From: Methyloprofundus sedimenti
GTDB lineage: Bacteria; Pseudomonadota; Gammaproteobacteria; Methylococcales; Methylomonadaceae
Assembly (NCBI RefSeq): GCF_002072955.1
Contig: NZ_LPUF01000004.1
Span: 62,001 to 126,000 of the forward strand
Reading direction: 5' to 3'
DNA length: 64,000 bases
This document shows, piece after piece, positions 2,592 through 23,646 of this stretch (within the stretch, counting starts at the first letter, position 1; each line of letters opens with the position of its first letter). The position numbers were made by a program, and so were the translations under genes. The notes below the pieces were generated by a model. That model was not told where the DNA came from. It saw only the letters and a program-made list of their open reading frames with translations, and did no database searches.

Positions 2592-3103
2592 TATCTCTCC
2601 TTTAATTATTGCCTCAGTACTTCATTTCAAGCATTCATATTAGCAAATACTTCTTCTATTGCTACGATTATCCTAGAAACCGCAGTTGACCGCTATAAAA
2701 CATTATAAGTGACTGAATATAAAATATAATGATGGTAAATACTGGTCACCTGCTGGGTGACTATACTCCGCTTTACGGTTTTGTGGATAAATCTAAGCAC
2801 AAAATACTGCGTTACAGCTCTTGCCAAGGGCTATGGCCATTGCCTGCGAGCAGTGCCTTGTCTTTCATACTCAGGTTTTCCACAAAATCCGTACTCAACT
2901 GAGGTTTCTAGGATTATTAAATAACACTTTACCTGCAGCAAATCATCGCATGAATTTATCCAAATAAATGACTTTATCTCAGGAAAAGAGCCTCAATATT
3001 AATATTGAAACTGGCTCACTTATTTTGGCTATTAACAGGAAATACTCTATTAGCCATTACAGGAGTATAATTAAGCCATTTTTAAGATAAATATAGTCAC
3101 TCC
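2592..3103. other. Intergenic region holding MITE copy 1
   Basis: This 512-bp gap between the flavin reductase (-) and the RRM gene (+) is about half filled by the mobile element at 2672-2912. The remaining flanks are AT-rich, and I see no gene in them. Confidence 0.7.
2672..2912. mobile_element. MITE copy 1 (241 bp, non-coding)
   Basis: The left end CCTAGAAACCGCAGTTGA and the reverse complement of the right end CCTAGAAACCTCAGTTGA match at 17 of 18 positions. Directly outside lie identical 5-bp copies of ATTAT (2667-2671 and 2913-2917), the target duplication. There is no open reading frame that could be a transposase. A second copy with its own TTTAA duplication lies at 22107-22346 and is alignable over the full length. 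Inside are further complementary arms (TTTTGTGGA near 2780 and TCCACAAAA near 2880). Ends starting CCTA and AT-rich 5-bp duplications recall IS1380-type elements such as ISEcp1; that link is from memory. Confidence 0.92.
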
Positions 3104-21974: not shown

Positions 21975-22347
21975 TGTGCCCCCGTTGTTACTACTTAAAA
22001 CGAACCTCTTTGCTGCGAATTAAATATAGCGAGTTTATAAATCAGTGTAGCGTTTAAGGTGCCTAACAACAAGTTAATGGCTGATTGATCCGCATCATTG
22101 GTTTAACCTAGAAACCGTAGTTGACCGCTATAAAACATTATAAGTCCCTGAATATAAAATATAATGATCGTAAATGCTTGTCACCTGCCGGATGACTATA
22201 CTCCGCTTCACGGTTTTGTGGAAAATCTGAACACGAAATACTGCGTTACTGCTCTTGCCAAGGGCTACGGCCATTGCCTGCGAGCAGTGCCTTGTCTTTC
22301 ACACTCAGATTTCCCACAATATCCGTGCTCAACTAAGGTTTCTAGGT
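21975..22347. other. Gap between TPAT copies, mostly MITE
   Basis: This 373-bp gap holds MITE copy 2 (22107-22346) and about 130 bp of AT-rich DNA that probably contains the promoter of the downstream P-T-P-permease genes. No gene is seen. Confidence 0.6.
22107..22346. mobile_element. MITE copy 2 (240 bp, non-coding)
   Basis: The ends CCTAGAAACCGTAGTTGA and CCTAGAAACCTTAGTTGA (right end, reverse complement) match at 17 of 18 positions and are flanked by TTTAA duplications at 22102-22106 and 22347-22351. The right duplication spans the TAA stop (22348-22350) of the T-component gene, so insertion duplicated the stop region and left the frame intact. Compared with copy 1, position 12 changed from C to T in both ends, which keeps them complementary. 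Confidence 0.92.
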
Positions 22348-23376
22348 TTAAAGTAACTCATCAATATCAATGGTTTCAACAGTCATATCAGAGTCATCCC
22401 AAAAAGTGCCTAGTCTGCCTAATGGAGTACGCCTGCCAGTTGCTGCAGTCCACAGACGATCGGAAATGGCCTGTATTTGTAATCCGGAAACCTGATTCAG
22501 AATTGCAAATTCCTGATTTTCAGGTGCTGTTCTGGCTAGCTGGGCATAACTGCGAATAACCTGTTTTACTGCTGCTGTTTCCCCTTGTCCCAGATAAACT
22601 TGTGCAGCCAGGACATGAGCAACACTCATTCCTTGCTGAGCACCAATTTGCATAGCCTGCTGCAAAACTTCTCTGGGAGACTTATCAATTGGCTCGTTAC
22701 CTGGAATCGTTATCCATATTGCTGCCTGAATGGCTGCAGGCACTCCCCACCATTGCTGATTGTCCAGACAAGCCGCTCCCCGGCCAACTTTTGCCGCAAT
22801 ATCCATCGGCACCTCAACACTGCCGCCAGAGGCTATATCATTTATAATTGCCTGTATCCCATCTAATAGACCAAGCAACCAATACAGTTGCTCATTTTCT
22901 GATGCAAACTCGGGACACTCACCACCGGGCTCAGACATAGCCGTTACCAGTGCATAGTATCCAGTCAATTGACGATGTGCAGCCAGACCAAGGAGTCTTT
23001 GCTGTGCAATGCGCGCATCTTGCGCTTCTATAGAATTTTTTGCATAAATGGCACGCAGATAGCGCAATTCCTGTTCCTGAGCTTGAAATTCTGTACAACT
23101 CCCTGCAACCATATAAAAAAGTATCGCAAGCTGATCTGGTGGTGTGGTGACTCTGGAAAAGCTCAACAAAAAAGGTATAAAAGCTTCAGCCATCGAACAA
23201 CCCAGAGCGACATCATCGCTTGCCAGCATATAAGGTACGCCCTGATCTTCTGCATAACCGAGAAGTGCATCCCCTGTCGTCTTATACACTACCGTACAAG
23301 CGTTCAGAAGCAAACACGAACCAAGCAAGAAGAGTAAAAGATCTTTTCTTTTCAAAGCAGTCAACCTGTCTGTCAT
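22348..23376 (-). CDS. TatT-type TPR lipoprotein component of TPAT transporter (copy 1)
   Basis: The protein carries the lipobox LLNAC (Cys29 counted from GTG 23382, Cys27 from ATG 23376), then the same helical TatT domain as copy 2: VPYMLASDDVALGCSMAEAF, AHRQLTGYYAL, KVGRGAACLDNQQWWGVPAAIQAAIW and TPLGRLGTFWDD. It is the first gene of the minus-strand TPAT cluster. The stop codon lies in the target duplication of MITE copy 2, which now separates it from the rest of the cluster. GTG 23382 is an alternative start. Confidence 0.86.
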   Translation of the reverse strand: MTDRLTALKRKDLLLFLLGSCLLLNACTVVYKTTGDALLGYAEDQGVPYMLASDDVALGCSMAEAFIPFLLSFSRVTTPPDQLAILFYMVAGSCTEFQAQEQELRYLRAIYAKNSIEAQDARIAQQRLLGLAAHRQLTGYYALVTAMSEPGGECPEFASENEQLYWLLGLLDGIQAIINDIASGGSVEVPMDIAAKVGRGAACLDNQQWWGVPAAIQAAIWITIPGNEPIDKSPREVLQQAMQIGAQQGMSVAHVLAAQVYLGQGETAAVKQVIRSYAQLARTAPENQEFAILNQVSGLQIQAISDRLWTAATGRRTPLGRLGTFWDDSDMTVETIDIDELL

Positions 23377-23646
23377 ATGCACTATATGTGCGTCATTTAA
23401 CGCATTCTAACTTATTTACTTTGAGCTCGCACCTTTCCTTCCCTGGCTACAAATATGTTGGCTGCTTTGCAGGTACACTTTTTAGCTTATCAATGACAGC
23501 CAAACTTCATAAAGAATTCATTTGGCCGAACGGTAAATCCTGATATTAAACAATTAACGCAGCCATTAAGGTGTTTTTACTTTCGCCAGTTGCTGTTTTC
23601 GGGGATAATAAAAAGCTTTGTAAAGCCAGTTCAATTCCATAAGCGC

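Follow-up and report, generated by a model that had tools for sequence, protein, structure and literature searches.

Introduction

Tn3-derived inverted-repeat miniature elements (TIMEs) share with the element described here a 5-bp duplication, and differ from it in being derived from Tn3 and in carrying 38-bp Tn3 ends. Among MITEs, MITEPye1 of Paracoccus yeei is related to IS1182 (PMC11578231, in the excerpts available). The target duplication of ISEcp1 is AT-rich and 5 bp long (TATGA), and IS1380-type elements such as ISEcp1 can mobilize adjoining DNA, for which they combine their own left end with a right-end look-alike (both according to the available portion of PMC2887853).

The element considered here lies in a window of 64,000 nucleotides, the whole stretch of DNA that was analysed, which corresponds to C4:62001-126000 of a 4.29 Mb host genome in 6 contigs. 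The reading we favor, at a probability of about 0.73, is that it is a MITE which would be moved in trans by long IS1380-type transposases, and that an internal palindrome common to both would be a bound DNA site.

Results

Copy 1 of the element (241 bp) occupies positions 2672-2912 on the plus strand, as defined by its sequence and by genome-wide copies, and copy 2 (240 bp) occupies 22107-22346 on the same strand; both intervals, and the target duplication assigned to each copy in the original prediction, proved exact. ATTAT flanks copy 1 on the left (2667-2671) and on the right (2913-2917), and TTTAA flanks copy 2 (22102-22106 and 22347-22351), its right copy overlapping the stop codon of a minus-strand ORF at 22348-23382. 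The 18-bp terminal inverted repeats (TIRs) of copy 1, CCTAGAAACCGCAGTTGA at 2672-2689 on the plus strand and CCTAGAAACCTCAGTTGA at 2895-2912 on the minus strand, match each other at 17/18 positions, as do those of copy 2 (22107-22124 and 22329-22346), and the left TIR has the pattern CCTARA-N5-CAGTTGA in common with the ends of long IS1380 elements. The internal palindrome, recognized from sequence, family counts and helper ISs, reads TCACC-TGCTG-GGTGA at 2746-2760 in copy 1 (10/10) and TCACC-TGCCG-GATGA at 22181-22195 in copy 2 (9/10). A long imperfect palindrome with the tip GGGCTATGGCCATT, referred to below as the right hairpin, spans 2774-2893 on the plus strand of copy 1 and is backed by the whole-element fold and by pair counts over 64 sequences. 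No ORF of at least 70 aa was found over copy 1. A 131-aa ORF (22164-22559) spans most of copy 2 and is taken as chance, because it continues into the terminal part of a 344-aa ORF on the minus strand.

The element was initially thought to exist in two copies, which is wrong. A BLAST search of the host genome with copy 1, as the original prediction had advised, returned many copies: at least 43 pieces (from the scoring of 40 of 68 initial candidates) and at least 28 full copies in addition to partial ones. The set analysed comprises 28 full-length copies, among them the two in the window. Exact 5-bp target duplications flank 16 of these, and 26 match at 4 or more of the 5 positions; when flanks were paired across different copies as a control, 92/756 (12%) matched exactly. 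T stands at position 2 in 27 of the 28 target sites and A at position 4 in 26. With the inserts removed, 24/28 sites fall outside any ORF of at least 80 aa, as judged with a crude ORF caller and, for many sites, from no more than about 500 bases of adjoining sequence. Joined flanks from two loci (L003, L006) were aligned to relatives. At L003, genome G016 has a clean empty site, with 520 bp aligned gap-free at 88% and a single 5-bp target, ACGAT versus ATAAT; at L006 three relatives align across the site, but with gaps near it. The element is short and non-coding, encodes no transposase, has TIRs and target duplications, is dispersed and has a clean empty site at one of the two loci. Its assignment as a MITE is borne out by the many copies, the duplications, the empty site and the lack of a gene.

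Several features of the host loci concern the integrity of the copies. Similarity to the element breaks off where the right hairpin starts from its foot (positions 117-124) in 10 of 29 loci examined (L109, L113, L120, L130, L131, L207, L212, L215, L218 and L220) and resumes at 213-214 in L207, L212 and L215; the long palindrome of the right hairpin thus resembles a hotspot for deletion. A form that lacks part of the interior, about 158 bp long (positions 1-134 fused to approximately 210-241), keeps the TCACC-N5-GGTGA palindrome and is found at three sites (L110, L119, L133). Its 5-bp flanks match or nearly match at all three, which suggests that the shortened element itself has transposed. A second, unrelated MITE-like family, with ends CCTGATTACGTACA..GGTAATCAGG and an apparent 8-bp duplication, is nested in three element copies, always inserted near element positions 27-34 (C1:1497279-1497446, corresponding to L117:535-702, and C1 near 463.7 kb and C3 near 431.7 kb, corresponding to L207 and L220). 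This second family is present in L208 and L222 as well.

Matches to the element were found in 6 of 61 genomes, the host included, and in 16 of 237 genomes of the bacterial family, spread over 7 of its 29 genera. Among these 16 are three with E values of just 4e-4 to 8e-4, possibly due to chance. Plasmid and phage records gave no match. In G019, which belongs to another genus, the core of the copies is about 75% identical, and both ends carry a different TIR, in most cases CCTAAATAAATCAGTTGA. The CCTARA-N5-CAGTTGA end pattern is also found, with interiors that differ by eye, in a 161-bp family (G006, G007 and G016) and in G020 elements with two long hairpins. The 85 loci fetched contained 45 distinct elements with target duplications, from which the MITEs outside the aligned family that are counted below were drawn. 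In the G020 MITEs with this end pattern (L169, L285, L290-L292, L294, L296) the interior consists of hairpins of a CCTTCGACAGGCTCAGG-type repeat, and L296 contains tandem copies of a GAGCCCCTTCGGCTATGCTCAGGA unit. The 52-bp element L306 (G006:C177) is barely more than two TIRs and has an exact ATAAT duplication.

The statement that no transposase is encoded in the window holds for the long IS1380 type, and it extends to the host genome, where no long IS1380 transposase matched at E ≤ 1e-8 (4 candidates scored). No helper of this type was thus found in the host genome, where the IS1380 pieces are weak or decayed and of another IS1380 type; a MITE family that has lost its helper need not share a genome with one. 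The host loci L012-L016 encode a multi-copy transposase, mostly of 476 aa, whose similarity to the IS1380 model is only weak and near which no sequence closely resembling the MITE ends was found. Scanning the host genome for the end pattern with at most 1 mismatch gave 85 sites, compared with 15 for a reversed control pattern. When these 85 sites were inspected by eye for an autonomous partner, no convergent ends 1-3 kb apart were found without an intervening MITE. Fourteen single ends and 2 other sites, a sample that omits about 5 further weak sites, were fetched and were mostly truncated, deleted or nested copies, with a few that looked like chance.

The wider bacterial family provided a candidate helper. 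An IS1380 search of its 237 genomes gave matches at 1e-30 in 32, and the ends of the elements were then analysed. Most had other ends, while a subgroup with a transposase of 513-516 aa had MITE-like ends. These long elements measure 1.63-1.70 kb, end in CCTARA-N5-CAGTT(GA) and have the same 5-bp target signature, as seen in full ISs with MITE-like ends and exact duplications from G177 (1636 bp, ATCAA), G181 (1695 bp, ATGAA), G075 (1634 bp, TTAAA) and G118 (1689 bp, ATCAT). The right end of the G181 IS, CCTAAAAAAATCAGTTGA, is identical at 18/18 positions to a TIR of MITEs in G019, and pieces of long helpers are present in the MITE-bearing genomes G019 (L273) and G020. The MITE ends and target duplication are therefore those of full IS1380-type elements from the same bacterial family, which supports the original suggestion of an IS1380-type helper. 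Three long transposases scored 65-70 bits with Pfam DDE_Tnp_1_4, above its cut-off of 34.7, and 132-141 bits with the NCBIfam IS1380 model, below its cut-off of 180; because the first cut-off is passed and the second missed, we refer to the putative helper as IS1380-type, of a divergent subgroup. Ordinary IS1380 elements, whose ends (CCCGGATATTTCA, CCTGAATCCGTG, CCTAAATCCTGCA) lack CAGTTGA, were dropped as helper candidates.

Four ISs of the bacterial family carry CACCC-N3-GGGTG, or a near form of it, just inside the transposase gene, and the MITEs carry it without any gene. For a broader sample, a protein search of genome contigs was used, from which the best 80 of 167 loci, spanning several phyla, were kept. 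A first pass with a simple pattern matched 48/59 loci, and the exact palindrome together with a TIR-like end was present in 55/85, at offsets of 75 (2 loci), 77 (7), 86-89 (45) and 99 (1). ISs were also called from their ends alone, giving 53 full elements among 84 loci, at least one of them counted twice (L249 and L348 have the same sequence). An exact target duplication flanks 22 of the 53, with T at position 2 in all 22 and A at position 4 in 21. Within the left 160 nt, 50/53 carry the palindrome at 9 or 10 of 10 positions, compared with 0.2 on average for shuffled left ends, and within the right 160 nt, 1/53. The offsets in these 50 ISs, measured from the left tip, are 75-77 in 6, 86-89 in 43 and 137 in 1. 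When ISs were clustered at 70% amino acid identity, 23/26 clusters carried the palindrome. Among 18 other IS1380 elements, a set that does not include ISEcp1, the exact palindrome was found in none at either end.

The palindrome lies in coding sequence, and we examined codon use in 50 IS rows (one with an in-frame stop), chosen by amino acid pattern and left after 4 rows without the motif and 2 duplicates were removed from 56. At the motif, His is encoded by CAC in 48/48 cases, versus 415/799 elsewhere in the same frames, and Gly by GGT in 48/50, versus 308/1648. The amino acids over the motif vary (HPxGE, HQMGE, RPMGE, HRMGE) and the palindrome arms are constant. Because the motif codons are frozen far beyond background, the constraint on the motif acts on the nucleic acid. 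In a structure model the motif lies in an N-terminal tail, with pLDDT under 50 for residues 1-23; values under 50 occur in 126/511 residues, including conserved stretches such as 170-201, and because conserved residues also score this low the model says little about the tail.

The palindrome occurs in MITEs with three different interiors, where its distance from the tip is mostly 72-78 nt. It is present at 8/10 or better in 62 of 64 aligned relatives of the element (9.9 in shuffles), a count inflated by common descent, and its offset is 75 in 42 of them. Among other MITEs passing our filter, 23/29 carry it at this level (3.3 in shuffles). Removing 5 that derive from the core leaves 18/24 MITEs with other interiors, made up of 10/11 from the 161-bp family together with its shortened version and 8/13 of the G020 kind; these were oriented by the better or nearer palindrome, and "left" is not an independent property there. 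The palindrome is missing or weak in the remaining 6 of the 24 and in 3 of the 53 ISs, and some palindrome-poor elements (L283, L287, L299, L306) have exact target duplications. Because of these cases, the palindrome may help rather than be essential.

A different account of the palindrome keeps the same MITE and type of helper and treats the motif as a hairpin in the mRNA through which transposase translation is controlled, with the MITEs retaining it by descent. The motif does fold as a short hairpin, and in 28/55 ISs it is located 18-30 nt after the farthest in-frame ATG. Over all 64 sequences the short helix formed by its arms has 47 G-T and 35 A-C cells, as pairing in RNA would allow, but G-T does not exceed A-C within any single group (3 versus 10 in the host's own copies, 10 versus 13 in the genus, 0 versus 6 in G019). 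The distance to the farthest in-frame ATG ranges from 6 to 63 nt, and no such ATG was found in 17/55 ISs, whereas the IS tip lies at a nearly constant distance, which falls into two classes about 11 bp apart. The palindrome is also absent from IS right ends and kept in gene-less MITEs of three interiors. For these reasons a DNA site is favored, and we regard translational control as unlikely.

The whole element has a strong predicted fold, with a free energy of -80.5 kcal/mol for copy 1 (z -6.4) and -91.8 kcal/mol for a copy from G019 (z -11.3). The fold comprises a TIR stem, hairpins on the left, the short TCACC..GGTGA hairpin and the long right hairpin. The consensus that RNAalifold derived from a mixed alignment was poor (-4.66 kcal/mol). 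Pair counts over the 64 aligned sequences used the fold of one G019 copy (L138), and thus lean towards that sequence: 79.0% of cells pair, versus 75.0% in shuffles, and both sides have changed in 264 cells versus 124.

These counts bear on the original claim that end pairing is selected, which had been drawn from a base changed at both ends of one copy. The change is real (C to T at TIR position 12, at both ends of copy 2), and no such trend appears over 28 copies. In the host set the TIR ends agree at 457/504 positions, compared with 456.1 (sd 2.0) after random reassignment of right ends to copies, and the same non-consensus base occurs at both ends twice, compared with 1.3 expected in shuffles. 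The right hairpin has 974 Watson-Crick cells against 975.4 in shuffles, with no excess. Selection on end pairing is accordingly unsupported by two copies or by 28, and the arms vary independently within the genome. Over all 64 sequences there is a strong excess of Watson-Crick cells in the TIR (1041 versus 954.9) and the right hairpin (2382 versus 2241.9), and double-changed TIR cells number 65, compared with 2 in the host copies; the right hairpin shows 715 versus 702.7 in the genus set and 448 versus 443.0 in the G019 set. Arm compensation is thus seen only between species or subfamilies and, more weakly, in the right hairpins of the genus and of G019. Because the excess is absent in the 28 host copies and present in the wider sets, host copies decay freely after insertion and pairing is kept in the source lineages.

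Very strong folding and compensatory changes between subfamilies might be expected if the element were chiefly a structured RNA or a regulatory hairpin retained for a host function. This is very improbable given the independence of the arms in the host genome, the empty site in a relative, the failure of the window to match any Rfam family at gathering thresholds, and the pair types in the right hairpin, where G-T cells are no more numerous than A-C cells (69 versus 96) over all 64 sequences, though the roles of these pairs swap on the opposite strand. Selection at the RNA level, which we sought in the G-T and A-C counts, has no trace in the right hairpin on this strand, and the short helix is mixed; the counts give no clear sign of RNA-level pairing. 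Equally improbable is a helper from another IS family that shares the end letters by chance, since the three tested long transposases, which also score weakly on IS1634, IS701 and IS4 models, match IS1380 best by far (38.4 bits or less on the others), and since it is exactly the long IS1380-type protein that full elements with these ends encode.

Discussion

The comparisons above point to a non-autonomous MITE that would be mobilized in trans by a subgroup of IS1380-type transposases of about 513-516 aa. Such a transposase would recognize the CCTARA-N5-CAGTTGA ends, and the palindrome may serve as a binding site in the DNA, either for the transposase or for a host factor, during assembly of the left end. 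A bound DNA site would explain both the retention of the palindrome in differing MITE interiors and the frozen codons of the ISs; we infer the need for the palindrome, and its binder, from these patterns. On balance, throughout this subgroup and its MITEs, a one-sided palindrome at one of two tip distances, which in the autonomous element lies within the transposase gene, probably acts as an assembly or enhancer site specific to the left end that sets left/right polarity. The palindrome may also be helically phased with the tip, as the IS offset classes are about 11 bp, or about one helical turn, apart; this suggestion draws on few independent shifts, with the 75-77 class in just 3 of 23 palindrome-bearing clusters and with offsets of 99 and 137 occurring once each. 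Taken together, the MITE has the appearance of a minimal substrate for the IS1380-type subgroup, and the palindrome looks like an overlooked part of the transposition machinery.

MITEs of this sort are natural deletion experiments, which reveal the transposon parts that are kept in cis. The combination of ends, 5-bp target and palindrome offset is a simple signature for finding helpers and MITEs across phyla. An internal site on the left only could provide a testable reason for the polarity with which IS1380-type elements move adjoining DNA, here seen in another subgroup than that of ISEcp1. MITEs and IS1380 elements are known kinds, and the shared palindrome is, as far as we have seen, the new part: within a partial coverage of the literature that comprised portions of PMC11578231, PMC4133298, PMC2887853 and PMC9208149, without ISfinder, we recognized no account of an IS1380-derived MITE of these bacteria or of the palindrome.

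The long subgroup resembles the IS1380 family, ISEcp1 for example, in its DDE_Tnp_1_4 transposase, in ends that start with CCT, as measured here in several members, and in a 5-bp AT-rich target duplication, which ISEcp1 also has (PMC2887853, available portion). It differs from other IS1380 elements in scoring under the NCBIfam cut-off and in having CAGTT at end positions 12-16, and from 18 others of the same order, ISEcp1 not included, in its palindrome. The MITE is non-autonomous and miniature, as TIMEs are (PMC4133298, in the text available). With MITEPye1, as described in the accessible part of PMC11578231, it has in common its small size, TIRs and direct repeats, lack of a transposase, strong fold, mostly intergenic location and presumed movement in trans. 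In contrast to MITEPye1, which has IS1182-like ends and 1-3 copies per chromosome (PMC11578231, same excerpts), the element described here ends in IS1380-like sequences, numbers at least 28 full copies and has an internal palindrome in common with its putative helper.
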